A program made the translations under genes and the position numbers. From Actinomycetota bacterium (GTDB lineage Bacteria; Actinomycetota; Acidimicrobiia; Acidimicrobiales; Ilumatobacteraceae), in contig WLJO01000019.1 in NCBI GenBank assembly GCA_009701715.1, forward strand, positions 1-44,666: 44,666 nucleotides of DNA. The letters run 5' to 3'. Under the pieces are notes generated by a model. That model was not told the DNA's origin. It ran no database searches and worked only from the letters and a program-made list of their open reading frames with translations. Of the stretch, positions 21,669-35,806 are shown piece by piece. Within the stretch, counting starts at the first letter, position 1; each line of letters starts with the position of its first letter.

Positions 21669-22880
21669 GTGACCGGCCCCCGAACCAGACGCGATCGCGT
21701 CGCGCTGAACGACGAGCGGATCCTCGATGCCGCAGTGGTCGTTCTTGACCTGTTCGGGATCGACGGGCTCTCGGCGCGCAGGGTTGCGGAGCAGGCGGGC
21801 CTGAGCACCGGTGCGATCTACGGCCGCTTCGAGAACACCGATGAACTGCTCGTCGAGGTGTGGAACCGTCGCCTGCGCAGCGTCGTGCTTGCCGGTCTCG
21901 AGCGCTCGATCCGCATGTCGGATCCAGCGGTCGGTGATCCCGACCCGGTGGTGCCGGAAAGTTTCGACCCCGTTGCGGAGCGGATCGGCGCCTTTGTCAT
22001 CGCGTTGGCCCCCCGCAGCGACGTGCTGTCCGAAGTGGTTGTTCCCGATGTCGATGCATGGCTCCGGGCGATGGGTGTTGGCCCGGGCAATCCCGCCACT
22101 TCGCGTGCGAGGCGAGCCATCGCGATCGCAGCATATTTCGGGGCGATGCTCAACGGATCGGTGAGCGAGGCGCTCCACCCGGATTGGCTGCTCTGCCTGC
22201 GTTGGTGGGAGGAGGCCCGAGCTCGTGAGGCCCTGCCGTTGAGCGGCCCTGTCGCTTGGCTGCCCCCCGCTCGGATCGCTGTGGAGTCCGGGAACCCGGA
22301 GCTGGATGTACTGCTCCTCGCCACGGGGGAGGTGATGGCGCGTGCCGGCGTCGCAGGAACCACGGTCACCCGAATCGCCCGACGTGCTGGCGTTCCCCGC
22401 TCGACGGTCTACGCACATTTCGACTCCAAGGACGACCTCGTTCAGGCATGCATCTTCCAGGCAACTGCGAGCGCCAGTGCTAGCGCGCGCAGGCTCAAGT
22501 CGCTCACCACCCCGCATGGCGTCGCCTCGGTGGCGCACCGCGTGACGGACCCCGCAGGCCGCCAGTGGCGGCGGCGCCGTATCGAGGGTCTGCTTGCGGC
22601 GATCTCCAGCCCGGCACTTGCGAGCCAATTTCTGCTTGCGGAGGTGGAGACCGAGAACGAGCTGATCATGAGGATCGGGCTGATCGGTCCGGGCGAGGAA
22701 TACGCGCTCCGGCAGTTGCTCCGATTCTTCGACGTCCTCGCGTCCGGGCTCGCTGTCGTGCCAGAACTGTCCACGGTGTTCGAGGGGATCGACTGGCGGA
22801 TCGTGCTCACCCCGATTACGGAACAGGCATCGACAGCGATCTTCGGGGAGTTGCACCCGAGAATCACCAGCACAGGCTGA
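21669..22880 (+). CDS. Tandem TetR-TetR transcriptional regulator
   Basis: 403 residues, about twice the usual TetR length. Two separate TetR DNA-binding domains are visible: residues ~14-70 (ILDAAVVVLDLFGIDGLSAR, then VAEQAGLSTGAIYGRF) and ~220-275 (LLATGEVMARAGVAGTTVTR, then IARRAGVPRSTVYAHF). Each is followed by a helical ligand/dimer-type region. A single chain could thus mimic a TetR dimer. The GTG at 21669 is the start. It is divergent from guanine deaminase and just upstream of the GNAT gene (8-bp gap), so it probably regulates one or both. Fused TetRs are known but uncommon. Confidence 0.88.
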   Translation: MTGPRTRRDRVALNDERILDAAVVVLDLFGIDGLSARRVAEQAGLSTGAIYGRFENTDELLVEVWNRRLRSVVLAGLERSIRMSDPAVGDPDPVVPESFDPVAERIGAFVIALAPRSDVLSEVVVPDVDAWLRAMGVGPGNPATSRARRAIAIAAYFGAMLNGSVSEALHPDWLLCLRWWEEARAREALPLSGPVAWLPPARIAVESGNPELDVLLLATGEVMARAGVAGTTVTRIARRAGVPRSTVYAHFDSKDDLVQACIFQATASASASARRLKSLTTPHGVASVAHRVTDPAGRQWRRRRIEGLLAAISSPALASQFLLAEVETENELIMRIGLIGPGEEYALRQLLRFFDVLASGLAVVPELSTVFEGIDWRIVLTPITEQASTAIFGELHPRITSTG

Positions 22881-22888
22881 GCGACGCC

Positions 22889-23761
22889 GTGAACGACGAG
22901 CACGAGATCGGTCCCGGTCGGTTGGTCGGCGCGATGCGAGCGGACGAGGTGGCAACGCTCATCGAGTGGGCGGCACAGGAGAGCTGGAACCCCGGAATTG
23001 CAGATGTGGGAATCGCTTGGTCGGTGGATCCGGCTGCGTTCATCGCCGTGCGAGAGCGCGGCGAACTGGTTGCCGGCGGCACGATCCTGTCCTACGACCG
23101 GGCGTTCGGCTTCATGGGCCTGTTCATCGTACGACAGGACCTTCGGGGCGCGGGTGTTGGCACCTCGCTCTGGCAGTACCGCCGCGACCGGCTGATCGGG
23201 CGGCTCGCCCCCGGTGCGAGCATCGGGATGGATGGGGTGTTTGGGATGGTGCCGTTCTACGAGCGGGGTGGCTTCGTGCTCGCCCACCGAGACCTTCGGC
23301 TGGAGGGGACCGCACATGGCGCTCGTGACCCGTCGGTCGTGACCCTGGGCGCGGTCGGATTCCCGGTGATCGATTCGTTCGACCAGAGGCACGTTGCCGC
23401 GCCGCGTTCGGAGTTCTTGCGTCGCTGGCTCGAGCAGCCGGGTGCTCACGGCGGTGCACTGTTCGAAGATGGGCGTCTCGTGGCGTATGGGATGGTCAGG
23501 CCGTGCAGGGTTGGTTACCGCTTCGGCCCGTTCCTCGCGGAGCGAGCGGACCTCGCCGAGCGCCTCATGGGGCATCTGCTCGCCGCCATCGAGGGAGAAC
23601 AGGTGCAGATCGACGTACCCGAGCCCAACGAGGCGGGATTGGGCCTCGCTCGCGAGAGTGGCCTCGTGGAGTCGTTCGGCTGTGCCCGCATGTACCTCGG
23701 TGGCGAACCGGACATTCCCCTGAACCGGGTGTTCGGCGTGACCTCGTTTGAGTTCGGGTAG
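22889..23761 (+). CDS. GNAT acetyltransferase with a C-terminal second GNAT-like domain
   Basis: About 290 residues. The N-terminal GNAT domain (~10-140) has the acetyl-CoA loop RQDLRGAGVGTSLW followed by GMVPFYERGGF. The C-terminal half (~150-290) is a second GNAT-like fold that ends GLGLARESGLVESFGCARMYLG. This architecture occurs in a widespread family of uncharacterised acetyltransferases; the acceptor is unknown. It follows the double TetR gene with an 8-bp gap and is probably co-transcribed. The GTG at 22889 is used; an ATG at 22934 is the other choice. Confidence 0.88.
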   Translation: MNDEHEIGPGRLVGAMRADEVATLIEWAAQESWNPGIADVGIAWSVDPAAFIAVRERGELVAGGTILSYDRAFGFMGLFIVRQDLRGAGVGTSLWQYRRDRLIGRLAPGASIGMDGVFGMVPFYERGGFVLAHRDLRLEGTAHGARDPSVVTLGAVGFPVIDSFDQRHVAAPRSEFLRRWLEQPGAHGGALFEDGRLVAYGMVRPCRVGYRFGPFLAERADLAERLMGHLLAAIEGEQVQIDVPEPNEAGLGLARESGLVESFGCARMYLGGEPDIPLNRVFGVTSFEFG

Positions 23762-23934: not shown

Positions 23935-24390
23935 TCACGGACGTGCGACGGTGTTCTCGATGCCCTCCGCCCCGATGCTCACGGTAAGGAGGAGCACCGG
24001 CTCGTTGCCGAGGTTCCGCCCGTTGTGGTACGTGCCGGTGGCCTCCATAAAGACCGAGCCCTTCGGGTACGCCTTCACCACACCGCCGTCGTATTCCACG
24101 GTGACGGTGCCCTCGAGGACCTGGACATAGAGGGGCGCGTCGTGGCGGTGCCAGCCCGTTTCCTGACCCGGCTGCATGGTGACGGTTGCCGAGGAAACCT
24201 CTGCGGGAGTGCCCGTCGGGTAGACGATCGTCTGCCCGAGCACGGTGGCCCGCGCCTTGGTCAACAGGGGCGTGCGGGAAACCGGTACCGCAGCGTCGGC
24301 CTGGCGATTCGGTGTATCGGATGCGCAGCCCGTTGAGAGAGCGGCAGCAAGCGCTGTGCAAGAGAGCAGGACGGCGAAGCGGATTGACAT
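23935..24390 (-). CDS. Cupin-domain lipoprotein
   Basis: 151 residues. A hydrophobic signal sequence ends in the lipobox LSTGC (Cys near residue 22), so the protein is anchored outside the membrane. The rest is a small cupin barrel: motif 1 TGWHRHDAPLYVQVLEG and motif 2 GTYHNGRNLGNEP, with three His positions able to hold a metal. The ligand is unknown. The ATG at 24390 fits the signal peptide; a TTG at 24405 is possible. It lies 37 bp after the substrate-binding lipoprotein on the same strand and probably belongs to the receptor operon that starts at 26829. Confidence 0.85.
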   Translation of the reverse strand: MSIRFAVLLSCTALAAALSTGCASDTPNRQADAAVPVSRTPLLTKARATVLGQTIVYPTGTPAEVSSATVTMQPGQETGWHRHDAPLYVQVLEGTVTVEYDGGVVKAYPKGSVFMEATGTYHNGRNLGNEPVLLLTVSIGAEGIENTVARP

Positions 24391-24427
24391 CGGTGATTTC
24401 ACCAACGGGATGCTAGACGTTGCGCTG

Positions 24428-25591
24428 TCAGGAGTCCTCTGGGCGCTCGACGCGCCCGTTCAGCACCGAGGCCACCTGCTTGAAGCGGCCGGCCTGCACC
24501 TGCAGCACGAAGATCGGTCCTTCGCGCACCTCGCCGGCGGCATCAAACGAGATCGACTTGGTGATGCCTTCGGTCTCGGTGGCGTCGATCCATGCGTCCA
24601 TGCCGCGACGGGTCCGAACCCCCGAGTCGAGGGCAGCAAGCATCAGTCCCGCCGCGTCGGAGTACTCCATCCCGTAACCAACCGGGGACTCCCGGAAGTA
24701 CTCGCGGTAGGCAGCGTTGAAGTCCTTGCGGGACTCGGTGTCGACGAGGTCCGGGTCGAGACAGGGGCAGGTTGCGTATGCGCCCTCCGATCCGGCGCCT
24801 ACACCGGAGACGAACGACGGGTCGAAGATGCCGTCGCCACCCATGAATGGCACTGTGATACCTGCATCGCGCAGTTGACGGAGCAGGCGCACTGCTGGCT
24901 CTGTCACGCCGCCGTAGTACACGGCATCGACACCGATGTCGGCAATCGCAGCGACCGTTGCGCTGTAATCGACCCCGGTGGCGTCCACCGAACCGCGTGG
25001 CGCGACCACGACACCCCGCTTGCCGAGATCCTCGGCAACGAGGTCCCCGAGCGACTTGCCGTAGAGACCGCCGTCATCGATGATCGCGACGCGCCTCGCC
25101 CCGAGCGTGAGGGTGAGGAACGCCGCTGCAGCGGGACCCTGTGCAGCGTCGTTGCCGACGACACGGTGGAAGACGGTCCAACCCTGCTGCGCGAGCGTCG
25201 GGTTCGTGGCCGAGGCGGTGACCACCGGGAGACCGGCCTTTTCGAAGATCGGCATGGCCGCCTTTGTCTCGCCGGAGAAACCAGGGCCGACGACGGCGAG
25301 GATCTGCGGGTCGTCGACGATCGTGTGCGCGAGCCGCTCGGCGATGGCCGGGTCTCCTTGGGAGTCGAAGACGAGATAGCCGACGGGGCAGTCGGGGTGC
25401 GCTGCGTTGTAGCGGAACACCGCAAGCTCGGCGCCGTTCTGGAACGGTGGCCGACGCGCCTGTCCGGTGAGCGCGCCGAGCCAGGCGATGGCCCGTGGTC
25501 GGCATCCGCTGGTGTTCTCGGACGAACCGCATGATGCGGTGGTGGCCCCGAGGGCGAGCACCGCGGCGACGAGGAACGCTTTAACCCTCAC
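24428..25591 (-). CDS. Branched-chain-amino-acid-type substrate-binding lipoprotein, without transporter genes
   Basis: 387 residues. A signal peptide ends in the lipobox TTASC (Cys21). The remainder is the type-1 periplasmic fold of the LivJ/LivK family: IAWLGALTGQ near the start, VVGPGFSGETKAAMPIFEKAGLP, and a C-terminal domain with VGYGMEYSDAAGLMLAALD. Such proteins bind amino acids or related small ligands. No permease or ATPase is adjacent. Instead its GTG start overlaps the stop of a Cache-HAMP membrane receptor (GTGA at 25588-25591), so it more likely presents ligand to that receptor than to a transporter. Confidence 0.9.
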   Translation of the reverse strand: MRVKAFLVAAVLALGATTASCGSSENTSGCRPRAIAWLGALTGQARRPPFQNGAELAVFRYNAAHPDCPVGYLVFDSQGDPAIAERLAHTIVDDPQILAVVGPGFSGETKAAMPIFEKAGLPVVTASATNPTLAQQGWTVFHRVVGNDAAQGPAAAAFLTLTLGARRVAIIDDGGLYGKSLGDLVAEDLGKRGVVVAPRGSVDATGVDYSATVAAIADIGVDAVYYGGVTEPAVRLLRQLRDAGITVPFMGGDGIFDPSFVSGVGAGSEGAYATCPCLDPDLVDTESRKDFNAAYREYFRESPVGYGMEYSDAAGLMLAALDSGVRTRRGMDAWIDATETEGITKSISFDAAGEVREGPIFVLQVQAGRFKQVASVLNGRVERPEDS

Positions 25592-26829
25592 AGGTCCTCC
25601 TTCATCGCTCGACGGATTTGGGCCGCTCGCACCTCGAGTTCGCGGAAGAACTCGGAGTCGGTGAGGTCCGACACTGTCTGTTTGCGGCGGTCCTCGTTGA
25701 TCTCGACACGCAGCGCAGCGACCTGATCGCGCAACGCCCGTTCGCGGACGGCCACCTGCGCGGCCATGCTCGAGAACACTCGCGCCAAGCGGCCGATGTC
25801 ATCCTTCGTGCGACCGAGGGATGCGAGTTGTTCGGTGTCGGGCTCGGTATTCGCCTCGATCGCCGTTGCAGCGGCAGTGAGCGCCGAGACCGGACGCGAG
25901 AGTCGGCGGGCCACGAGGAGCGCGAGCGCAAGGGCAACGAGTGCAACCACAGCGAGCGCGATCAGAGCGGTTTTCGCGAGGCGGTTGATCGGCCCGAGGA
26001 ACACGTCGCGTGGCTGGAAAACGATGGCAGTGTTCCCGCCGGTCGTTGTGGACCAGGCGACCACCTGGGTGCCGCGACCCGGCAGGTTCACGCGGGGGAG
26101 CGTGCCCGATAGCGACTCAGCAATCCTCGTCGACAGGGCGTCGAGGCCGAGTGCAGCGAGTGTCTGCCCCAGCAATCGGTTGTCCCGGGCGAGCACGATC
26201 TCGCCGGATGCGTTGACGAGGACCGCCTGACCGCCGGGGCCGAGGGGGGCCTGGTTGAGCGCAAAGAGCACGTCGTGTCCGCTCACCTGCAGCGCCGCAA
26301 CCCCAACCACTGCGGCCCCGGGTTCCCGCACAGGCGCCGAGACGGTGACGGAAGAGCGGCGTGAGGCAGGGTCGTACAGCACGGGACCGACCTTGGTCTG
26401 CCCACCGGCGCTTGTGGCGAACCAGTCGGTGTCACCGAACTGCTTCCCGCGGATCGAGGTCGGCGAGGCGGCAAGCGTGCGGCCGTCGAGGTTGAGCAGC
26501 AGCACTGCCTCGACATCGAACTGCGCGGCGGTCGCCCCGATCGGTGGCGTGTCGGTGCGCCCTCCGCTCCTCAGGTAGTTCACCACCTCGGTGGTGGTGC
26601 CGAGTTGATCAGCTCGACCGACGACTCCGAGGAGGTACTGCTGCACCGACGACGCGCCAACCACGGCGCGGCCCTCGGCCGCGGACAGTTCGGACTTCTC
26701 CACGGCCCCCTGGCCCGAGCGTGATGCGGCGAGGGAGATCAGCGCCATCGGCACAATGGCGGCGGCGACGAGCGTTGCGCCGATTTTGGTGCCGAGACCC
26801 CACGAACGAGGATCTGCCGAGAACCCCAA
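25588..26829 (-). CDS. Cache-HAMP membrane receptor ending in a coiled-coil tail (copy A)
   Basis: 413 residues. TM1 is ~15-36, a double-Cache-size extracytoplasmic domain ~37-280, TM2 ~286-307, a HAMP domain ~308-361 and a charged helical tail 362-413. There is no kinase, cyclase, GGDEF, EAL or methyl-accepting domain after HAMP. The tail contains LRVEINEDRRKQTVS and DLTDSEFFREL, closely matching the tail of the receptor at 29175-30374 (22 of 50 positions identical by eye). The start is TTG, fixed by GGAGG 7 nt upstream. It is co-translated with a substrate-binding lipoprotein, so ligand sensing is likely; the output must be another protein bound by HAMP or the tail. Confidence 0.88.
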   Translation of the reverse strand: MGFSADPRSWGLGTKIGATLVAAAIVPMALISLAASRSGQGAVEKSELSAAEGRAVVGASSVQQYLLGVVGRADQLGTTTEVVNYLRSGGRTDTPPIGATAAQFDVEAVLLLNLDGRTLAASPTSIRGKQFGDTDWFATSAGGQTKVGPVLYDPASRRSSVTVSAPVREPGAAVVGVAALQVSGHDVLFALNQAPLGPGGQAVLVNASGEIVLARDNRLLGQTLAALGLDALSTRIAESLSGTLPRVNLPGRGTQVVAWSTTTGGNTAIVFQPRDVFLGPINRLAKTALIALAVVALVALALALLVARRLSRPVSALTAAATAIEANTEPDTEQLASLGRTKDDIGRLARVFSSMAAQVAVRERALRDQVAALRVEINEDRRKQTVSDLTDSEFFRELEVRAAQIRRAMKEDL

Positions 26830-26836
26830 TTCCGTT

Positions 26837-26841
26837 CCTCC
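26837..26841 (-). promoter_or_regulatory. Ribosome-binding site fixing a TTG start
   Basis: GGAGG on the minus strand lies 7 nt before the TTG at 26829. No ATG or GTG with comparable spacing exists nearby, so the rare TTG is the probable start of receptor copy A. Confidence 0.6.
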
Positions 26842-26966
26842 ATCCCTCGAACCGATCTGGCTAAGGCCTCAGTGTCGCATGCCTGTGCCGGAATGCACGT
26901 GTTGAAGCGTTACAGTCGGCAGGATGTGGCACAGGTCGGTTCCGAATCGGCGCGGGGCTTTTCGCA

Positions 26967-27680
26967 ATGATCTTGCCTGAAAAGCGTGAACCTGTGGCGG
27001 TTTACCAGCGCGCCGACGATGGATCGCTCATCGAGGTTTTTGACGTTGTTGGTGGAGATCACTCCGATCTCGTTGGTGCCATCGCTGAGATGCACTCTGC
27101 GGCATTCCCGGAGCACCCTTTCGTCGGCCCGATGATTCGTGAGCGGGCGGCGTCGGCGATAGATGCTGCCGCTGGTGTCCGTCCCCACCAGTGGCTCGTC
27201 CAGGTGGACGGGGCGACCGCTGGTTTCGTCCTCTTCGACTCGAACGTGGCCCGTAAGGTTGCCCTCTCGCACTACGTATACCTCCGAGTGGAGTCGGGCG
27301 TGTTGACCGTGGACCGCCGTCGTCTGCTGGGTTGGCTCTACCGCCGGATCATCGAGCAGTTGTCGAGGGACTGCGGAGGTCTACCTGTGCTCGGTCTCGT
27401 CGGGGAGGCGCCGGGCTACCGGGTGCCGATCTTTCGGTGGATCGGTTTGAAGGACTTCGGCATCGAGTTCTACGAACCGGTGGTCGGTCCACAGTGGCAG
27501 GGGCCAGGCTCGGAGTTGAGACCCCTCCACCTACTCTGGCTCCCGCCCGACGGGATTGACCCGACCTTGATCGAGGAACGGGCAAGGCAGGCCGGCTCCG
27601 CCGCGTTCCTTCTCGATCACTATCGCTTCGACCTGAGCGAACCGTGGGTTGCTCGCGCAGTCGGCTCCACCAGCGAGTAG
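26967..27680 (+). CDS. GNAT-like acyltransferase of unknown substrate
   Basis: 237 residues. The order of segments suggests a GNAT fold: an N-terminal EMHSAAFPEHPF helix, the central WLVQVDGATAGFVLFDS strands, SHYVYLRVE, a helix after RRRLLGWLYRRI in the acetyl-CoA position, and a late PIFRWIGLKDFGIEFYEPV strand-helix. The classic Q/RxxGxG/A loop is replaced by VDRRRLLGW, so the cofactor loop is divergent. It is divergent from receptor copy A (137-bp shared upstream region). The other two divergent units of this block also encode GNAT domains. Confidence 0.6.
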   Translation: MILPEKREPVAVYQRADDGSLIEVFDVVGGDHSDLVGAIAEMHSAAFPEHPFVGPMIRERAASAIDAAAGVRPHQWLVQVDGATAGFVLFDSNVARKVALSHYVYLRVESGVLTVDRRRLLGWLYRRIIEQLSRDCGGLPVLGLVGEAPGYRVPIFRWIGLKDFGIEFYEPVVGPQWQGPGSELRPLHLLWLPPDGIDPTLIEERARQAGSAAFLLDHYRFDLSEPWVARAVGSTSE

Positions 27681-27711
27681 CCCGGGGCGTGATGCGCTGC
27701 CGTTCGGCGTG

Positions 27712-29178
27712 TCACCCGAGTCGCTTGCGTCGCTTCAGGCGGTAGGAGAGCTGCGTGTCGTCCCACGTGCGGACTGTCCGGGTGCTGAGGAACAGTGCGG
27801 GCACGACAATCACGAGGCCGATGAGCGGGGCAATCCAGAGATTGTCGGTGGCGGCCGCGATCGCGATCGGTCCCGATGCAACGATGAGGCTGATCGCGAG
27901 TGGGCCCATGTCGATGACAAACGACGAGCGGAGGCGCCGCTCGTCGGGCAGATTGGCCATAGCGGCCTGCCGAGCGGAACCGTCGATACTCCAGCGAGGA
28001 AGACGCCAGAGGACGAGCGCAATCGAGCCGACAATGACGGTTCTCGTGGTGCCACCCACGACGAGGACCGCCGTACCGAGGAGGGCCCCGATCGGGAGCA
28101 GTTGCAGGATCCTGGCGACCCCGAACCGATTGATGAGCTTGGCAGCTCCGAAGGTCTGGAGCAGCCAGCACAGCACGAAGCAGACGAGTGATGTTCCCGC
28201 ATAGAACGCCTGGAGCGTCCCGGTGTCGGGGAAGCGTTCCTGAGCCATGTGCAGGAAGCCGAAGTCCACCATGGTTCCGCCGAAGATGGCGAGCAGGCCG
28301 ACCCAGAACATCCATCGATATGCGGGGAGCTCCCGGATCAGCTTGATTGTCTCCCTGAAGGCTGCCGTTGCGCTTTGCTCGCGCTGGTGGCCGAGCCCGG
28401 TGGTTGCTGTAGCAAGCGCCTTCGGCAAGATCCAAGCGGTTACCGCGCAGATCACGGGAGGAAGGACGAGCAGCCAAGTCAGTGAGATATCTCCCTGGTC
28501 GAAAATCACGGGGGCAAGCACTGCGATTCCGAGACCGACGACCTGTCCGCCGAAGAGCCAACGCGAGATCCGGGGGAACACCGTCACTCCCTGACCGGTG
28601 GTGAACACGTCACCCGCCACCGTCCACACCACGAGCGGAAGCAAGAAATTCATCTGGTCGGCCAGCAGCCACGCGATCGCTGCGGGCACCTTCTGCGGGA
28701 TATTGACCGCGAAGAGAATCAGCATCACGACGAAGGCTGCTGCGTACGCGATGAACAACCACCGAACGACCCCGAGACGTGCAAAGCGATCGACATAGCG
28801 GGACTGGATGAAAGCGATGATCAGGAGCCCCACGCCGCCGAGCGGCCAGACGAGGGCAAGTGCCATCGGCCCGCTGTTGCCGAGCAACTGTGACGCTGCC
28901 ACCGATTCGGTCAGTACCCCAGAGAGGCCGACCCCGGCAAGTGCGAGGGCGAGGGCGAGGGACCATCGACTCCGCGTCTCCACACGGTCGGACTCCGACG
29001 TCGAGACGTCGCTGCGCGGACGGGCACCGGACCCTGCGATGAGCTCGTCGAGAGCGTCACCCGCGCTCCGGGTTGTCGCCGCTGCTTTCGTCATGTCGTC
29101 CAGGGCGTTGTCGATATTCCTCGGGGGGCGTTTCGCCCCGAGGAGGTCGTCGAGCGGATCGTTGCCGTTCGCGCTCAT
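27712..29178 (-). CDS. MFS-fold membrane protein with a repeated N-terminal LD motif
   Basis: 488 residues. A soluble N-terminus (1-70) precedes about twelve hydrophobic helices resembling the MFS/ATP-ADP-translocase (Npt1/Npt2) fold. No signal peptide is visible. The soluble part carries three copies of a short motif exactly 17 residues apart: PLDDLL (8-13), ALDDMT (25-30) and ALDELI (42-47), each like an amphipathic docking helix. The gene overlaps the Cache-HAMP receptor copy B by 4 bp (ATGA at 29175-29178), so the two are made together. It may be a transporter, or a transporter-like sensor component. Substrate unknown. Confidence 0.8.
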   Translation of the reverse strand: MSANGNDPLDDLLGAKRPPRNIDNALDDMTKAAATTRSAGDALDELIAGSGARPRSDVSTSESDRVETRSRWSLALALALAGVGLSGVLTESVAASQLLGNSGPMALALVWPLGGVGLLIIAFIQSRYVDRFARLGVVRWLFIAYAAAFVVMLILFAVNIPQKVPAAIAWLLADQMNFLLPLVVWTVAGDVFTTGQGVTVFPRISRWLFGGQVVGLGIAVLAPVIFDQGDISLTWLLVLPPVICAVTAWILPKALATATTGLGHQREQSATAAFRETIKLIRELPAYRWMFWVGLLAIFGGTMVDFGFLHMAQERFPDTGTLQAFYAGTSLVCFVLCWLLQTFGAAKLINRFGVARILQLLPIGALLGTAVLVVGGTTRTVIVGSIALVLWRLPRWSIDGSARQAAMANLPDERRLRSSFVIDMGPLAISLIVASGPIAIAAATDNLWIAPLIGLVIVVPALFLSTRTVRTWDDTQLSYRLKRRKRLG

Positions 29179-30374
29179 TCGTCGCCCGCTTGACCAGCGT
29201 TGCGCTCGTTAGCGGCATCGGCCAGTTCGATGCCCTTCACCTTGGCGCGCATCACGCCGGCCTTCTTGGTGAGATCGTTGAAGAAGTCGCTGTCGACAAT
29301 CTCACTCACCGCGTCCTTGCGCTTTGCCTGGTCAATCTCGACGCGCAGTACCTGGACCGTCTGGGTCAGGGTTCGCTCACGTTCGCCGACCTTCTGGGTC
29401 ATGATCTTGAAAGAGTTGGCGAGATCTGTCATCTCATCGGCGAAGAGCGCCTTCGCTGACTGTTCGACGTCAACGCCGTAGTCACCCTCGGCAACTTTCT
29501 GGGTGACCGCAGTGAGTCGACCGAGTCGGCGCGTGACGAGTCCGGAGAGGACGTAGATAAAGGCGAGCAGCACAACATACGACACGCCGAGGACCGGGTA
29601 GAGCACCCGGAGTACACGGGACCGAACGTTCTTGACGTAGGACAGCGGATAGTCAACACCGAAGCCACCGACCACCTTGCCCGCCTTGTCCTTGATCGGT
29701 GTGTACACCGAGATCCAGGTGTTGAGTGCATCCGTGTACGCGGGTTGCGCCGTTGTCCTCTCGAAGCCGTCCGTGACGTACGTGGGAACTGTGCCATACA
29801 GCTCTGCAGCGTCCTGCTTGAAGCCAGCGCCGCACGGTGCGTCGGTGTAGTTGCCCTCTGGGTCACTACACCACGACACGCCGGTAAAGCCGTACGCCCC
29901 CCACTGCCCGATAAACCGCAGCTTCCCGTCGCTCGTGTACGCGAGTGTGTAGGGCGAGGCATCCGGATTGGTGAGCCGGATATCGCGCATCTCCTCGACG
30001 TGTCGCCAATAGGCGGGGTCCGTGGGCCACGTACTGTCGACGGTTGCCGTCTGCCCGGCGAGGAAGCCCGCTTCCGCCGGGTACACCGCTCCGGGGGTTG
30101 GCTTGTCGGCGGCGGTGAGCAGCTTGGCGAAGTTCTCGATGTCGACGGTCTTGGCGCCGCCCTCGGCCAGTTCCACGAGGGTCTTTTCGAGTCGGTCACT
30201 TGCCGAGCCGGTGGAGAATCTGAGGATCCAGCCGGCCACCACGAGGAACACGACGGTGATCGCTGCTCCGAACCCGAAGACGAGCTTCCAGCGCATCCCG
30301 AGCCTTGCTCGCCGTTTGGCACGTACGGGAGTGTCGACGCCGGCAGCGGGCGGTTGGGTAACGGTGGCTGTCAT
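29175..30374 (-). CDS. Cache-HAMP membrane receptor ending in a coiled-coil tail (copy B)
   Basis: 399 residues. TM1 is ~31-52, a Cache-size extracytoplasmic domain ~53-255 with two Cys (169 and 181) that could form a disulfide, TM2 ~256-280, HAMP ~281-332 and a tail 333-399. Like copy A it lacks any catalytic or methyl-accepting output. The tail motif LRVEIDQAKRKDAVS and EIVDSDFFNDL (343-368) aligns without gaps to copy A, while the sensory domains are unlike each other. The ATG at 30374 is chosen because the basic segment before TM1 follows it; the open frame extends upstream without similarity. It is coupled to the MFS-fold gene and divergent from the adenylation-enzyme operon. Confidence 0.88.
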   Translation of the reverse strand: MTATVTQPPAAGVDTPVRAKRRARLGMRWKLVFGFGAAITVVFLVVAGWILRFSTGSASDRLEKTLVELAEGGAKTVDIENFAKLLTAADKPTPGAVYPAEAGFLAGQTATVDSTWPTDPAYWRHVEEMRDIRLTNPDASPYTLAYTSDGKLRFIGQWGAYGFTGVSWCSDPEGNYTDAPCGAGFKQDAAELYGTVPTYVTDGFERTTAQPAYTDALNTWISVYTPIKDKAGKVVGGFGVDYPLSYVKNVRSRVLRVLYPVLGVSYVVLLAFIYVLSGLVTRRLGRLTAVTQKVAEGDYGVDVEQSAKALFADEMTDLANSFKIMTQKVGERERTLTQTVQVLRVEIDQAKRKDAVSEIVDSDFFNDLTKKAGVMRAKVKGIELADAANERNAGQAGDE

Positions 30375-30474
30375 AGTCCCAGAGTAGCCGAACCCCTCCG
30401 GGTTCCCGAAGAACTGCACACTTCGGTGAGTAGTTGGAGTGCCGCTGCTCCGCTGGCGGCTAGCGTTTGAGGCC

Positions 30475-32097
30475 ATGGTGGAGCTTGTGGTGCCGAGCTG
30501 GGACCGGACGCAGGACGTCGCCTATCGGGTGCGGTCGCTCGGAGACGCGTGGCGCAGCGGGGTTCATCTGTCCCCGGGTGGCCCGGCGCTCAGCGTGGAC
30601 GGCGAGACGCTCACCTACCGCGAACTCGATGAGAGGGCGAGGTCCATCGCGGCGGCGATTCAACAGATCGACCCGACTGGCTCGCCGGTTGCGGTGCTCG
30701 CCCAACGCAGCCTCGATGCCTACCTAGGGGTTCTCGGAGCAGTCCTAGCCGGTCGCACTTACGTACCGCTCCATCCCGACTTCCCACCGCAACGGTCGGC
30801 TGGGATGCTCCGCCGTTCGGGGGCGGCCACGGTGGTGGTCGGCCCGGAGGCCGACGAAGCAGCGCAGGCGGTGTTTGCGGCTGTCGACCGCCCTGCTGCG
30901 CTCGTGTTCCCGACCCGTAGCGCTCCCGGATGGGCATCGCTTGCCGCAGCAGGCCTGCCCGTCGTGGGCGCCGACCTGCCTAGCCCGGGTGAGGCCCAAC
31001 CAGAGACCACCCGCACCGACTCGATTGGCTACCTGTTGTTCACCTCGGGCAGTACGGGCGAGCCCAAGGGCGTCGGCGTCACACAGGCGAACGTGTCTGC
31101 GTACCTGACACACGTGGTTACTGCCTACGGGTACGGGCCCGGGGACCGTTGCTCCCAAATGTTCGACCTCACCTTCGACCTGAGTGTGCACGATCTGTTC
31201 GTCACCTGGATGTCCGGCGCGTGTCTCTGCGTGCCGTCGAAACGATCGGTACTCGCACCGGGGGCGTATATCCGGAACGAGGGTTTGACGGCCTGGTTCT
31301 CCGTCCCGTCGGTTGCGATGGTGATGGATCGGCTCCGCATGCTCAAGGCGGGAGCGTTCCCGGGGCTACGGCTGAGCCTCTTCTGCGGCGAGGCCCTGTC
31401 CGCTGGGCTTGCGGAGAAGTGGGCGATGGCCTCGCCCAACTCGGAGCTCCACAACCTGTACGGGCCGACCGAGGCCACGATCGCGATCACCGCCTACGAA
31501 TGGGCGCCCGGAGCAGTCGCAAGCGGGGTCGTGCCGATCGGCCGTCCGTTCCCCGGGCACGAGGTTGCGGTGGTCGATGCATCGGGGATCGACGTTGGCG
31601 AGAGCGGGCGTGGCGAGCTCTGCCTCGCCGGGCCGCAGGTAACGCCCGGCTACTGGGAGGACGCGGAACGCACCGGGGCGAGCTTCGTCGAGTTACCCGG
31701 CAGCACCCAGCGCTGGTACCGAACGGGTGATGTGGTGGAACGCTCCGAGCACCAAGGGCTTCGCTATCTCGGTCGTATCGACGACCAGATCCAGATCATG
31801 GGATTCCGTGTCGAGCTGGTGGAGATTGATGCAGCGCTTCGTCACGCACTCGGGACCGAGCTTGCGGTTGCGGTCCCGTACCCACCGGGGCCCTCGGCCG
31901 AGGGTGTGTACGCGTTCGCGGCAGGCAGCGACCACCACGGCGACGAGGCGGGCGCACTTGCGCTCTGCCGTGACCGGCTGCCCCCCTACATGGTTCCCAA
32001 ACGGGTGTTTTTCGTGGACCAACTCCCGCTCAACAGCAATGGCAAGATTGACCGCGGCGCGTTGCGCCCCGTCCTTGAGGAGTTGCTCGGTGCCTGA
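30475..32097 (+). CDS. Amino-acid-type adenylation enzyme (DltA/NRPS A-domain-like)
   Basis: 540 residues, a free-standing NRPS-type adenylation protein. A3 core TSGSTGEPKG (190-199), A4-like FDLTFDLSVHD with Asp235 in the position that binds the alpha-amino group in NRPS A domains, A5 NLYGPTEATI, A7 YRTGDVV, A8 GRIDDQIQIMGFRVE and A10 NSNGKIDRG with catalytic Lys524 are all present. It should activate an amino acid as AMP ester and load it on the carrier protein encoded next, whose GTG start overlaps its stop. Organisation resembles dltA-dltC, but a GNAT follows instead of DltB. The ATG at 30475 is used; the frame opens at 30439. Confidence 0.9.
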   Translation: MVELVVPSWDRTQDVAYRVRSLGDAWRSGVHLSPGGPALSVDGETLTYRELDERARSIAAAIQQIDPTGSPVAVLAQRSLDAYLGVLGAVLAGRTYVPLHPDFPPQRSAGMLRRSGAATVVVGPEADEAAQAVFAAVDRPAALVFPTRSAPGWASLAAAGLPVVGADLPSPGEAQPETTRTDSIGYLLFTSGSTGEPKGVGVTQANVSAYLTHVVTAYGYGPGDRCSQMFDLTFDLSVHDLFVTWMSGACLCVPSKRSVLAPGAYIRNEGLTAWFSVPSVAMVMDRLRMLKAGAFPGLRLSLFCGEALSAGLAEKWAMASPNSELHNLYGPTEATIAITAYEWAPGAVASGVVPIGRPFPGHEVAVVDASGIDVGESGRGELCLAGPQVTPGYWEDAERTGASFVELPGSTQRWYRTGDVVERSEHQGLRYLGRIDDQIQIMGFRVELVEIDAALRHALGTELAVAVPYPPGPSAEGVYAFAAGSDHHGDEAGALALCRDRLPPYMVPKRVFFVDQLPLNSNGKIDRGALRPVLEELLGA

Positions 32098-32353
32098 TCT
32101 CGGCCCGTCCGTGCGGGCATTCGTCGTCGAAACCCTGGCCCAGCGCGCGGCCCAGCTTGGCTTCGACGGTCTGGAGTTTGACGGCTCCTTCGACTTCTTC
32201 GAATCTGGTCTCCTCGATTCGCTCGGACTCATCACGCTGATCGACGCGGTCGAGACCCAGTTCGACCTGGAGATGGACCTCACCGGAATGGACCCGGAGG
32301 CTTTCACGACGGTCGACGGCCTCGTGCGCTCGCTGATCCCCGAGACGGCATGA
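32090..32353 (+). CDS. Acyl/peptidyl carrier protein
   Basis: 87 residues, a stand-alone carrier protein. The phosphopantetheine site is Ser44 in FFESGLLDSLGLITL, and the acidic helices around it are typical. The GTG start at 32090 overlaps the last codons of the adenylation enzyme by 8 bp, and its stop overlaps the GNAT start (ATGA at 32350-32353). It would hold the activated (amino)acyl group as a thioester. This gene is easily missed because it starts with GTG inside another gene. Confidence 0.88.
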   Translation: MPDLGPSVRAFVVETLAQRAAQLGFDGLEFDGSFDFFESGLLDSLGLITLIDAVETQFDLEMDLTGMDPEAFTTVDGLVRSLIPETA

Positions 32354-32832
32354 GCAATCAGGTGCACGTCGTCTTCCCCGAACGGGGAGATGTGCTGCTC
32401 GACCAGGTCGAGGAACTGTTCGCCCTGCACATCGAGCACCTTGCATCCGTTGGGCAGTTGGTGCCGATGGTGGACGACGCCCCCCACCTGTGGCGGGCAG
32501 GGGTGGAGCGGTCGATCGGGCGGATCGGCACGGTTACCGTTGCCGTTGTCGGTGACGAGGCCGTCGGCTTCTGTTACGGGGTCGTCCGTGCACTGCCGGA
32601 CTATCTCGGCGGCTCGAAGTTCGCCACGATGCCACACTTCTTCGTTCGGGAGGACCAGCGGGGCCTGGGCGTCGGTCGCTTGCTCTACCGAACCTTCGAG
32701 CGCTGGTGCGCCGACCGCGGATGCACATCAATCGAGAGCTACGTCGCGATTGGCGACGAGCGGGCAGCACGCTTTTGGGACAGCGCCGGATTCGTGCCCG
32801 AGCACACGCAGATACGTCGCTTCCTCGGGTAA
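32350..32832 (+). CDS. GNAT acetyltransferase, third gene of the ligase/carrier operon
   Basis: 160 residues, a complete single-domain GNAT. The acetyl-CoA loop is FFVREDQRGLGVGRLLY (~96-112), and ERAARFWDSAGFVPEH forms the last helix-strand. Being coupled to a carrier protein, it may use acyl-CoA or the carrier-bound acyl/aminoacyl group as donor, or the loaded amino acid as acceptor. The acceptor cannot be told from the sequence. It converges on the 180-residue unknown gene. Confidence 0.88.
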   Translation: MSNQVHVVFPERGDVLLDQVEELFALHIEHLASVGQLVPMVDDAPHLWRAGVERSIGRIGTVTVAVVGDEAVGFCYGVVRALPDYLGGSKFATMPHFFVREDQRGLGVGRLLYRTFERWCADRGCTSIESYVAIGDERAARFWDSAGFVPEHTQIRRFLG

Positions 32833-32903
32833 CACCGATCAGTTTCGGCGACGTCCGAGGAACGGGGGCGCATGGGCCGCCAACGCACCTACTTCTCGGG
32901 GGC

Positions 32904-33446
32904 TCAGCCCTTCTTGTTCTTCTTGCCCCGCAGGGAGGCGAACAGTCCCTGCTCCTCGGAGAACGCAGTGTCGACGGGCTTGCCGACGGCCTTCTGGTAT
33001 GCCTCGTCGAATGCTGCGGTGCCCACGCCGAACGCTGTAGCGATGTGCTTGGCCTTGTTGCGCGGCAGGTCGTGACGCAGCGACATCTGGTGCAGGACCT
33101 GTGCCCGCAACGGCAGTTCGTCGGGAAGCAGAACCTTCCAGGACGATGCGGTGCTGTCGAGTGCCCGGGTCTCGGCACCTGCCGTGCTGCGGCGGGCGTT
33201 GCGGAACGACTCGATGAAGGCAGCGTCAGCCTCGCCGGGGAGATCTCGGCGGAGCAGTTCGCCGTCGGCATTCCAGAGGAGGTTGAGCATCACCCCGGCC
33301 TCGGGTGCGGCGGTAACCATGGCGGCGCGACGATCCTTGACCCGTTGGGCCTCCTGCTCGATGAGATAGAGCAATGAGCGGGCACGGCGTGGGCGTGAGA
33401 GCCCTCCGCCCTGGATTTCTTCGCGGCTGAACAGTTCGTCGCTCAA
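32904..33446 (-). CDS. Unknown soluble protein divergent from the ParA-type ATPase
   Basis: 180 residues, rich in Arg, Ala and Leu, predicted mostly helical, no membrane segment or signal. Recognisable stretches are SREEIQGGGLSRPRRARSLL near the start, KVLLPDELPLRAQVLHQMSL centrally and a lysine tail GKKNKKG. I know no family. The start is TTG at 33446, fixed by a perfect AAGGAGG 5 nt upstream. A 22-codon ORF overlaps this start (TTGA). Its position opposite the ParA-like gene, with a shared ~100-bp upstream region, suggests a role in the same system. Confidence 0.75.
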   Translation of the reverse strand: MSDELFSREEIQGGGLSRPRRARSLLYLIEQEAQRVKDRRAAMVTAAPEAGVMLNLLWNADGELLRRDLPGEADAAFIESFRNARRSTAGAETRALDSTASSWKVLLPDELPLRAQVLHQMSLRHDLPRNKAKHIATAFGVGTAAFDEAYQKAVGKPVDTAFSEEQGLFASLRGKKNKKG

Positions 33447-33511
33447 CCGAGCCTCCTTGTGCATGGCAGGGTTGCCGTGAGATAGAGTACTGAAGCGAGT
33501 AGGGCTTTCAT
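33443..33511 (-). CDS. Possible 22-residue leader ORF
   Basis: An ATG at 33511 opens 22 codons (product begins MKALLASVLYLTATLP, ends CTRRLG). The stop codon TGA at 33445-33443 overlaps the TTG start of the 180-residue gene as TTGA, and the frame contains that gene's AAGGAGG. Ribosomes translating the leader would cover and then re-expose the start, allowing translational coupling or regulation. The stretch just before this ATG (CTGGGACTATGA) is the same as at the start of receptor copy B. Its real use is unproven. Confidence 0.3.
   Translation of the reverse strand: MKALLASVLYLTATLPCTRRLG
33452..33458 (-). promoter_or_regulatory. Perfect AAGGAGG ribosome-binding site for a TTG start
   Basis: AAGGAGG on the minus strand is followed by 5 nt and TTG at 33446. 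It decides this start over the in-frame ATG at 33464, which lies upstream of the site. Confidence 0.7.
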
Positions 33512-33549
33512 AGTCCCAGTGCAATATCGACATTTTCGGAGGCCGTACC

Positions 33550-34308
33550 GTGACCAAGATCGTTTCTGTCCACTCGTTCCGTGGGGGCACAGGCAAGAGC
33601 AACTCAAGCGCGAACATCGCCGCCAAACTGGCAGCGTCGGGCAAGCGCGTGGGTGTAGTAGACACCGACGTGCAATCCCCCGGGATCCACGTGCTGTTCG
33701 GGTTCGACGAGCAGATGAACGGCAAGATGCTCAACGATTACCTGTACGGCAACTGCCCCATCACCGATGCCGCCCACGACGTCACCGATCGCCTCCCGAG
33801 CGTTGCGCCCGGTGGCCAACTGTTCCTCGTACCGTCGAGCATCAAGGCCGCAGACATCGCCAAGGTGCTGCGCCAGGGCTACGACGTTGAACTGCTGAAC
33901 GAGGGCTTCCGCTCCCTGGCCAAGGGCCTCAACCTCGACGTGTTGATCATCGACACGCACCCGGGTCTCAACGAGGAGACCCTGCTGTCCATCACAATCA
34001 GCGACGTGCTCCTGCTCATCCTCCGCCCCGACAAGCAGGACTATCAGGGCACCGCCGTCACGGTGGACATCGCCCGTCGCCTCGAGGTGCCGGAACTGCT
34101 GCTGCTCGTCAACAAGGTTCCGTCGAATGCTGACCGCGCAGCAGTCGCTGCCGACGTGTCGGCTGCGTACGGTGCCGAGGTTGCTGGCGTACTGCCGCTC
34201 AGCGAGGACATCGTGTCGAATGCTTCTGGCGGCCTGTTCAGCATCACGAGCCCGGATCACATCTGGTCCCAGACCGTTGCTCAGGTAGCCGAGCGCGTCG
34301 GCCGCTGA
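33550..34308 (+). CDS. ParA/MinD-type P-loop ATPase
   Basis: 252 residues. A deviant Walker A is present near the N-terminus, but its first Lys is Arg: RGGTGKS (11-17) instead of KGGxGKT. Switch-like VVDTDVQSPG and Walker B LIIDTHPGLNEET follow, then LLILRPDKQDYQG and LLLVNKVPS typical of MinD/FlhG/CpaE-like members. Such ATPases dimerise with ATP and position partners on membranes or DNA. The GTG start has GGAGG 8 nt upstream (33537-33541). No ParB, MinC/E or flagellar partner is nearby; the next gene, 22 bp downstream, is an HATPase-like/GNAT fusion. A role with the membrane receptors is inferred from position only. Confidence 0.9.
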   Translation: MTKIVSVHSFRGGTGKSNSSANIAAKLAASGKRVGVVDTDVQSPGIHVLFGFDEQMNGKMLNDYLYGNCPITDAAHDVTDRLPSVAPGGQLFLVPSSIKAADIAKVLRQGYDVELLNEGFRSLAKGLNLDVLIIDTHPGLNEETLLSITISDVLLLILRPDKQDYQGTAVTVDIARRLEVPELLLLVNKVPSNADRAAVAADVSAAYGAEVAGVLPLSEDIVSNASGGLFSITSPDHIWSQTVAQVAERVGR

Positions 34309-34330
34309 GCCCTACGGCTCAGCCTCAACG

Positions 34331-35806
34331 ATGATCTCTGCGTCGGGACCCGCTGACGCAATCGGCGTGTCAGCGCTTGCTGCTGTTGCCCGCGCGTCTG
34401 CGCAGGCGTATGGGGCCGCCACCGAGGCGGCCGGCCTTGCGGTTCAGGTACTTGCCGAGGATGCCGCGTCCCGCATGACGGTTGCGGGCCAGAACGATGT
34501 ACTCGATCTCACTGTTGATGTGGACGGCACCGAACTGCTGCTCACACTGCACGACCGGGGAGAGCCGATCAGCGGACCGTCGGCACGGCTGCTCGTGCTG
34601 GTGGACCATGGCTTTCTCACGGCGGCCGACGGCCACATCGAGGAGGGCCGCAATGCGAGCGTGGTGCGTCTGGCGCTCCCGTCCCACGGCCGGATGGTCA
34701 GCAACGAGGGCGTCGAGGTCCTCGACGAGGAGGCAGCGCTCTCCAGCGCGCCGGTGACGATCCGCAGACTCGAGCCCGGTGACGCGCCGGCGCTCGCCCG
34801 GTGCATCTACCGCTGCTACGGGTGGAGCTACCCGATGGTCAATCTCTACTTCCCCGATCGTGTGGCTGCTGCCCTCGAGAGCGGGAAGCGGATTGGCGAG
34901 GTTGCCGTCGACCCCGATGGAGAGGTTGCTGCTCACTGGGGTGCGGTCTACGTAGCCGATGGCGTTGTGGAGACCGGCGGAACCGTCACCGACCCCCGGT
35001 TCCGCAGGCGCGGTATCGCGAACGAGCTCGGGGAACGGCTTCTCCAGCGACTTATCGACGACGGTGTTCGCGGTCGTATGCGCGAGCCCGTGCTTACGCA
35101 CTCGGCAACCCAGGGCATCGCGCTGCGCGAGGGGGCACACCTCGCCGGTGTGTACCTGAACGCTGTGGTCCCCATCCAGCAGGTCGGCATCACCGACGGC
35201 ATGCTGGAGAACCGGGCGTCGTTCACCGTGATGTACGGCCCGCTCGTGCCCATGGAACCGGCAACCCTGTGGGTCCCGCCGCCCTACGAGGCGCTCGTGC
35301 GCTCCATCGTTACCCCCACGGACTGGCCGCGGGAGTTCGGCTCGGCCCGTGCCGCCCAGTCGTGCCCGGACGCGTCAGTGGTGGGTTCGTCCTATGACGC
35401 GTTCAACCGCGTGGGCATTATCGAGGTGTTCACGGTTGGCGACAACCTCACGGATGCCGTCGACGACACCGTCACGCAGTTGCGTGCCGGCGGGGCGGAC
35501 GTGATCCGCGTGCACCTGCCGGTCAACCAACCGGCACTCGCCTCGCTCGGGGCGGGCTTGCCAGCACTTGGCCTGTCGTTCGCTGGCCTGCTTCCGGACT
35601 TCGGCACCTTCGGTGACGCGCTCATCCTGCAGTGGCTGCGGGACCCCGACGTGGACACGAGCATTTTCGTCTACGCGTCCGATCACGTTCGTGACGTTGC
35701 CGAGGCGATCGTGGCCCAAGCGCGCCAGGTGGGCGAGGACGGCAACATGCTCCGCCGCCGTCAGGCTCGTCGGCAGCGGCTCTTCGCCGCCCTGCCCACG
35801 GCCTAG
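34331..35806 (+). CDS. HATPase-like plus GNAT fusion protein
   Basis: 491 residues. The N-terminal ~125 resemble the RsbW/SpoIIAB-type ATP-binding fold: TLHDRGEPISGPS matches the D-x-G-x-P box, and the end reads VVRLALP. The N-box helix lacks the usual Asn, so ATP use is doubtful. Residues ~140-290 are a GNAT domain (VTIRRLEPGDAPALARCIYR at the start; acetyl-CoA loop VTDPRFRRRGIANELGERLL). Residues ~300-491 look like a second GNAT-related domain ending LGLSFAGLLPDFGTFGDALI. It follows the ParA-like ATPase by 22 bp and is surely co-transcribed. It may sense a partner or nucleotide with its N-terminus and acylate a protein or small molecule. Confidence 0.75.
   Translation: MISASGPADAIGVSALAAVARASAQAYGAATEAAGLAVQVLAEDAASRMTVAGQNDVLDLTVDVDGTELLLTLHDRGEPISGPSARLLVLVDHGFLTAADGHIEEGRNASVVRLALPSHGRMVSNEGVEVLDEEAALSSAPVTIRRLEPGDAPALARCIYRCYGWSYPMVNLYFPDRVAAALESGKRIGEVAVDPDGEVAAHWGAVYVADGVVETGGTVTDPRFRRRGIANELGERLLQRLIDDGVRGRMREPVLTHSATQGIALREGAHLAGVYLNAVVPIQQVGITDGMLENRASFTVMYGPLVPMEPATLWVPPPYEALVRSIVTPTDWPREFGSARAAQSCPDASVVGSSYDAFNRVGIIEVFTVGDNLTDAVDDTVTQLRAGGADVIRVHLPVNQPALASLGAGLPALGLSFAGLLPDFGTFGDALILQWLRDPDVDTSIFVYASDHVRDVAEAIVAQARQVGEDGNMLRRRQARRQRLFAALPTA

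Follow-up and report, generated by a model that had tools for sequence, protein, structure and literature searches.

How does a membrane receptor pass on what it has sensed when it ends without a recognised output domain? HAMP sensors of this kind give no clue to their target, and two of them are encoded at positions 23935-35806 of the DNA stretch analysed here (the window: 44,666 nucleotides, contig C11 of the 2.8 Mb genome of an Actinomycetota bacterium of the family Ilumatobacteraceae). The two receptors, genes C and F among the genes labelled A to L in Table 1, share a conserved C-terminal tail, and the same range encodes a ParA/MinD-type ATPase, K. Tail and ATPase recur together in other phyla. 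From sequence comparison, we give about even credence to the view that they form the core of a sensor-to-ParA signalling module, in which the tail would be the output of the receptor and K a switch under its control. An earlier note on this DNA had proposed that these receptors, the ATPase and a set of acyltransferases work together in sensing and acyl modification. In the following, G numbers denote genomes (G000 being that of the window), L numbers denote the loci compared and g numbers denote genera.

Overall, C and F are about 25% identical, yet their final ~55 residues align closely, with the consensus RExxLxxQVxxLRVEIDExKRxxxVxEIxDSDFFxxLxxxAxxMR. A third receptor of the same genome, encoded on contig C16 and carrying an sCache_2/dCache_2 domain, ends in the same tail, and no model searched named this element. 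Pfam recognises only Cache and HAMP on C and only HAMP on F, with no MCP domain and no recognised output domain on either protein. The earlier note had described two Cache-HAMP receptors without an output domain; there are indeed two receptors, but both end in the shared tail and F has no Cache match in Pfam. F probably starts internally, about 35 residues into its reading frame. Relatives of F near K are 49-72% identical in L026, L049, L051, L052 and L053 and 32% identical in L083.

Across all loci, the tail ends proteins with dCache, sCache_2/dCache_2, CHASE2, GAF, PAS-PAS, REC and HisKA-REC-HAMP domains, and the Rhizobium tail lies at the end of a 145-residue coiled-coil protein encoded immediately upstream of K. 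Besides the tail, Pfam recognises no output domain on the REC, PAS, GAF and CHASE2 proteins. With such various sensor types upstream, the tail may be regarded as a putative exchangeable output element. The motif is duplicated in two Nostoc receptors, its first copy being followed by a weaker one (L061, 23.9 bits; L056, only 14.7 bits), a doubling of the sort that docking peptides can have. The REC-tail proteins, one of which has a hybrid kinase next door, suggest that docking would be regulated and not static. Pairing of the receptors with ordinary kinases was one of the outcomes that would speak against the proposal of the earlier note; hybrid histidine kinase genes do lie beside the tail protein in G226 and G259, but K is there too.

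The distribution of the tail follows that of K. Among 296 sampled Actinobacteriota genomes (thresholds of E <=1e-30 for K and E <1e-10 for the tail), K is found in five and the tail in six; all five K genomes carry the tail, and the sixth tail genome is G183 (hypergeometric 3e-10, not corrected for phylogeny, which holds for all co-occurrence statistics given here). Weak tail matches in three further genomes of this sample (E 0.003-0.008) were taken as chance. When 395 genomes of the window's class were searched for the tail at E <=1e-8 and stretches of up to 20 kb were fetched, 12 genomes had the tail, 10 of them with K within 20 kb. Of 39 genomes in the class of G259, tail and K each occur in two, and these are the same two. 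A tblastn search of K against 72,556 plasmid records gave eight records at 53-58% identity, from Kovacikia, Pseudanabaena, Nostoc (four), Rhizobium jaguaris and Deinococcus; below these come five Streptomyces records at about 40% and then values of at most 34% (best 40 of 317 records). Tail proteins are encoded within 10 kb of K in five of the eight and farther off in two more, namely a GAF protein in Pseudanabaena and a CHASE2 protein in Nostoc NIES-3756. Searching the plasmids with the tail returned seven records, of which six contain K, or six of six without Pseudanabaena ABRG5-3. The Cache protein of ABRG5-3 stands beside contractile-injection genes; by eye it is missing the FF..L core, and hence it was not counted as a true tail protein and a linkage to contractile injection was rejected.

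The tail-K pair is thus present in Actinobacteriota, Cyanobacteria, Deinococcus and Rhizobium, and the third tail receptor of the window's own genome has a separate K 2.6 kb away. Furthermore, tail distances and K distances are correlated over 23 loci, many of them fetched by K (Mantel r 0.76, 0/2000 permutations, species phylogeny not removed). The tail in all K genomes of the first sample, a nearby K in most tail genomes of the class and the same pair in three other phyla argue that receptors and ParA-type ATPase belong together. This was part of the reading in the earlier note, and the check by co-occurrence in distant genomes that it had suggested bears it out.

Several observations weigh against a signalling module of tail and K. 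In G183 (93% complete), a REC-tail protein is encoded, but a search for K found none even at E 1e-10. Tails without K in the fetched stretch (not searched genome-wide) occur in G590 and G645, where the contig is short or ends close to the tail; K is likewise out of view in the stretches fetched for two of the four tails of G016 and for the second tail contig of G506, which is short. The 19.9 kb read of Nostoc UHCC 0870 include K without a tail. Moreover, among seven newly fetched genomes of the class that contain K, genes E and D are found only in G667 and gene J only in G615. A role of J and E is therefore not general, and this patchiness of E, D and J suggests that tail and K are the core, with J, E and D as members in part of the lineages.

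K itself is MinD-like over its whole length (archaeal MinD 1hyq, E 6.7e-19) and belongs to the MinD/ParA superfamily. Its P-loop departs from the ParA signature: HS[FY]RGGTGK[ST] is found in 30 of 30 clade sequences read, one from Streptomyces and some close relatives included, and in it Arg replaces the ParA signature Lys. K stays below the cut-off of every NCBIfam model among the matches listed, the BcsQ model giving 38.7 bits against a cut-off of 157.85. BcsQ, a ParA/MinD relative in cellulose biosynthesis, also has Arg at the signature position (RGGVGTT; PMC9178275); K differs from BcsQ in its retained catalytic Lys and its link to sensors. McdA, which positions carboxysomes, is likewise a ParA family member without the signature lysine, with Ser in its place (SGGQGKT; PMC6328274 and PMC9178275), but its partner is McdB, whereas K has Arg and a sensor partner. 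The P-loop is destroyed (TRRVG[AT]S) in a ParA-like gene that overlaps the gene of a second tail receptor in both G515 and G527 (L126:8625-10780 and L128:2770-4817), and in Deinococcus a second ParA is also altered in its P-loop. From their sequences, the ParA-like genes at L126 and L128 are likely pseudo-ATPase partners. Since such P-loop-less proteins are still paired with the tail, the pairing appears to outlive ATP binding in some lineages. An apparent tail-ParA fusion in G515 and G527 was rejected as a stop-to-stop artefact, receptor and degenerate ParA being separate overlapping genes.

Around this core, the window holds further genes (Table 1). From left to right, A, B and C lie on the minus strand, D on the plus strand, E and F on the minus strand, G, H and I on the plus strand, J on the minus strand, and K and L on the plus strand, so that the three successive divergent groups described by the earlier note are seen in the sequence. 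Its binding and cupin lipoproteins, its amino-acid-type ligase with a carrier of its own, the MFS-like membrane protein, the 180-residue protein and the RsbW-like/GNAT fusion are present as well.

Table 1. Features of positions 23935-35806 of the window, with the evidence for each assignment (bit scores are given with the model cut-off where available).
Feature	Position	Strand	Evidence and remarks
A, cupin lipoprotein	23935..24405	-	Cupin_2 (Pfam); lipobox by eye
B, Peripla_BP_6 solute-binding lipoprotein	24428..25591	-	Pfam 129.5 bits; lipobox by eye; overlaps end of C
C, dCache-HAMP-tail receptor (putative core), paired with B	25588..26829	-	dCache_1 41.1 bits (cut-off 45); HAMP 29.2 (cut-off 25)
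Tail of C	25591..25761	-	Alignment; 81 bits with tail profile, of which it is itself a member
D, conserved 237-residue protein, beside E, K or L in relatives	26967..27680	+	GNAT-like, not proven
E, MFS-fold membrane protein	27712..29178	-	Overlaps end of F; MFS_1 32.0 bits (cut-off 33.4); C-terminal LKRRKRL
F, extracytoplasmic sensor-HAMP-tail receptor (putative core)	29175..30476	-	HAMP 31.5 (cut-off 25); no Cache match in Pfam
Tail of F, putative docking/output element	29229..29396	-	Alignment; 92 bits with tail profile, of which it is itself a member
G, amino-acid-adenylation ligase, accessory	30439..32097	+	TIGR01733 335.8 bits (cut-off 317.4)
H, phosphopantetheine carrier protein, accessory	32090..32353	+	PP-binding 26.7 (cut-off 20.8); DltC-like below cut-off
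I, GNAT acetyltransferase, accessory	32350..32832	+	Acetyltransf_1 43.5 bits
J, ~180-residue domain, divergent from K	32904..33464	-	No Pfam match alone
K, ParA/MinD-type ATPase (putative core)	33550..34308	+	Pfam AAA_31/ParA above cut-off
P-loop codons RGGTGKSN of K	33580..33603	+	
L, degenerate RsbW-like ATPase domain fused to GNAT, accessory	34331..35806	+	GNAT 22.0 (cut-off 20.7); RsbW-like part only by family profile

The gene clusters are more than chance neighbours, because other genera also have J-K-D-E-F together, and other families B-C-K. B adjoins C in nine genomes including this one, with K in view in eight of the nine; C and B share a stretch with K in G328, G016, G615, G512, G515, G527 and G667. 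B is likely the ligand-presenting partner of C, and A was seen near C and B in this genus only (G000 and G328). J is found in nine of 200 genomes of the window's family, and K adjoins it in all nine. D, E and F recur around J-K in three genera where contigs are long enough (this genome, G091, G328, G326, G365 and G353). In another family of the class, a span of 15 kb in G016 holds relatives (27-64% identity) of B, C, K, D, E and F, a gene set repeated in G667 of the same genus. Relatives of E occur in three of the 296 genomes of the phylum, all with K (at most five candidates scored per genome). The place that the earlier note gave to the MFS-fold gene and the 180-residue protein thus holds in the window's family, but few of the loci fetched from other families of the class have either.

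Large membrane proteins encoded next to K in Nostoc C057, G259, G487 and G226 have an N-terminus homologous to J. In G226 the membrane part matches Trp_Tyr_perm (40.0 bits, cut-off 22), so the membrane protein fused to J has a probable amino-acid-permease fold judging from this match; the J-fused proteins of Nostoc C057 and G259 match no Pfam family, though they are related to the G226 protein by BLAST. Hence, next to K, J stands by itself, has an MFS-like E close by or forms part of a membrane protein. The J model is mostly helical with a predicted local distance difference test (pLDDT) score of 47.7, and among solved structures J has no relative, with only weak matches to protein A constructs. 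For E, no relative was found among solved structures at E 0.1, and LKRRKRL ends E in six of six aligned members. A distant E relative of Deinococcus lies 2.4 kb downstream of K, immediately after a tail receptor and the second, degenerate ParA. Pfam, NCBIfam and PADLOC gave no dedicated family for J, D or L, and L matches GNAT only.

How such a module might work can be pictured as follows. An extracellular ligand would be presented by B to the Cache domain of C, and would be sensed directly by F. It would change the HAMP coiled coil and thereby expose or hide the conserved tail, which would dock on the adjacent K and change the nucleotide cycle of the ATPase. In this lineage, K and the J domain may then act on a transporter-fold membrane protein, here the MFS-fold E and in G226 the amino-acid-permease fold to which J is fused. 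Other outputs might be swapped between lineages, such as SpoIIE/RsbW/STAS-type genes in Rhizobium and Nostoc, while the RsbW-GNAT fusion and the aminoacyl ligase-carrier-GNAT operon would be such outputs in the window. The ligand step and the partnership of tail and K rest on domain knowledge and linkage; we infer the binding of the tail to K, the control of the ATPase cycle, the action of K on J and E and the outputs.

We would also suggest, tentatively, that the pair represents a general, as yet unnamed signalling mode of at least four phyla, in which a short tail of many kinds of sensor switches a dedicated ParA-type ATPase clade with Arg for the signature Lys, in some lineages acting on a transporter-fold protein with J. 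Among the literature matches listed, from a search with most subscription papers outside its scope, there is no description of sensor tails paired with a ParA clade. If K is a signal-controlled switch, the module would be categorically new, and the role of ParA proteins would widen from moving cargo to receiving signals; otherwise, it would be kin to the receptor-coupled ParA ATPases. A motif that predicts the partner of a sensor would turn orphan sensors into testable pathways. The tail-K pair is small and modular and occurs in named strains of cyanobacteria, Deinococcus and Rhizobium, which makes it directly testable.

The main rival to a signalling switch is positioning only, which we hold to be possible but doubtful: K would cluster or space the receptors, the tail would be an activator in the manner of ParB or TlpT, and the signal would leave via E, L or a partner switch. 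Such an arrangement has precedents that count against the reading of K as a switch. In the Rhodobacter cytoplasmic chemoreceptor cluster, the ParA-type ATPase PpfA is encoded next to the receptor TlpT and binds its N-terminus, a segment thought to control PpfA by ParB-like stimulation of the ATPase (PMC3964821); the layout of a receptor terminus and an adjacent ParA is the same as here. In Vibrio, the adaptor ParP tethers the polar chemotaxis arrays to the ParA-like ATPase ParC, which is thereby coupled to receptors (PMC5706961). However, PpfA has the motif KGGVGKT (PMC9178275) and serves a CheA/CheW array, and ParP reads MCP and CheA, whereas the tail described here sits on the receptor itself and on many sensor kinds. 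Of the marks of a receptor-positioning ParA system, the window shows an ATPase beside a receptor, but it has neither a Walker A motif with the signature Lys (KGGxGK[ST]) nor an MCP domain, the P-loop of K reading RGGTGKSN. A pure anchor would, moreover, need no phospho-receiver, and neither the REC, PAS, GAF and CHASE2 proteins nor the two window receptors offer Pfam an output candidate other than the tail. Another rival is the assumption of no functional link, in which neighbours would be carried along by descent or on mobile plasmid regions. Several cases are indeed on plasmids, gene order varies and the statistics leave phylogeny in, but the same pair stands in four phyla and several actinobacterial families among otherwise different neighbours, and we regard this explanation as scarcely credible.

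Two further rivals involve the accessory genes. K could mainly be an input to RsbW/STAS/SpoIIE partner switching, with the RsbW-GNAT fusion L as effector in the window. The Rhizobium locus L057 has the order Cache-HAMP-SpoIIE, HATPase-like, STAS-like (the latter two just below cut-off), tail protein and K; in Nostoc NIES-3756 (L087, as annotated), the CHASE2-tail gene comes after genes for STAS, ATP-binding and PP2C proteins; STAS and SpoIIE genes stand before K in Deinococcus and next to the 40% relative of K in Streptomyces; and L adjoins K in genera g1 and g4 and lies at a distance from it in G016. The HAMP region of the receptors resembles that of SiaA, far below the SiaA cut-off, and Cache-HAMP-PP2C proteins of the SiaA/RsbU type act in partner switching, but the receptors here carry the tail and no phosphatase domain. 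No STAS or SpoIIE/PP2C is found among the 20 window proteins scanned, which leaves L as the sole partner-switch part there; its family profile has RsbW 6m36 as the best PDB match (E 8.8e-7), yet the N-box is not intact, the Asn being lost where the window protein reads LAEDAASR and the relative in L032 reads CRNAIEHA. L is also absent from four of four genomes of g214, a genus that retains the rest of the set, and from G226 and G259, all of which have K, and we consider partner switching as the main role of K unlikely. The (amino)acyl mark that the earlier note saw as the purpose of the system, with receptors controlling a ligase, a carrier and GNATs that make it, fares worse and is in our judgement very improbable. 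In its favour, the adenylation ligase G, with its carrier H, and the acetyltransferase I are divergent to F both here and in G326 at 64-70% identity (68% for G), G091 retains a 33-residue remnant of I beside F, and L at >=48% identity occurs in three of the 296 genomes, this one included, all with K. However, the operon was seen beside a receptor only in these cases, and G-H-I was not found in L049, L053 and L083, which keep D, E, F and K. L is absent from the K genomes named above, and its distant relatives (RsbW-GNAT fusions with 25-30% identity) are encoded in genomes that gave no match for K (G152, G227, G130, G098, G206, G186, G049, G166 and G284). D, moreover, is not a proven GNAT. The ligase-carrier-GNAT operon and the RsbW-GNAT fusion are accordingly described here as accessory outputs and not as core.

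The distant RsbW-GNAT fusions, found in several actinobacterial families, are possibly a separate uncharacterised family; that of G049 is the C-terminus of a 1269-residue protein. A scan of genome contigs with L gave one locus, a close relative of J-K-L in an Acidimicrobiales metagenome-assembled genome. The true start of G is probably about 90 bases into its reading frame. As to the four proteins with GNAT or GNAT-like domains counted by the earlier note, I and L pass Pfam, while D offers a weak lead: one of seven family members matches Acetyltransf_1 (E 0.019), the window member matches nothing, hhalign of D against the GNAT domain of L gave nothing, and the quality of the D model (pLDDT 38.7) does not permit a fold search. 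Just outside the range, at about 22.9-23.8k, is a clear double GNAT. It follows a chain with two TetR_N matches (both at 21669-23761), and relatives of the two genes adjoin the cluster in G328 (L049).

A reading of the window as a known defence system was rejected: among ten proteins run through PADLOC only K matches, as part of two generic models. Elsewhere in the window, at 5119-9218, a response-regulator-EAL protein overlaps a large hybrid histidine kinase.

Some other neighbours of K, J and the tail recur. The second tail receptor-K pair of the window's genome (G000:C16:7329-10820, L038) is flanked by an Fe-ADH gene and a DUF5122 beta-propeller gene. In two families, five loci (L025:1264-2253, L049:1162-2151, L053:9013-10005, L125:5495-6463 and L127:14177-15151) encode an alpha-acetolactate-decarboxylase protein as a neighbour of K or J; the three run against Pfam score above the cut-off, the proteins of the four loci besides L025 share 60-76% identity with that of L025, and two have a weak TrmB-like helix-turn-helix at the end. 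Nif11/NHLP peptide clusters are found near K and tail genes on plasmids of cyanobacteria (L054/L086 and L056), and in L056 and L061 these genes adjoin ones for DUF7005 and cyclic-nucleotide-binding proteins. Finally, K or its 40% relative is found within shared carbohydrate/stress gene sets (AGE epimerase, GlgX, STAS) of Nostoc, Deinococcus and Streptomyces (L055, L059 and L060).

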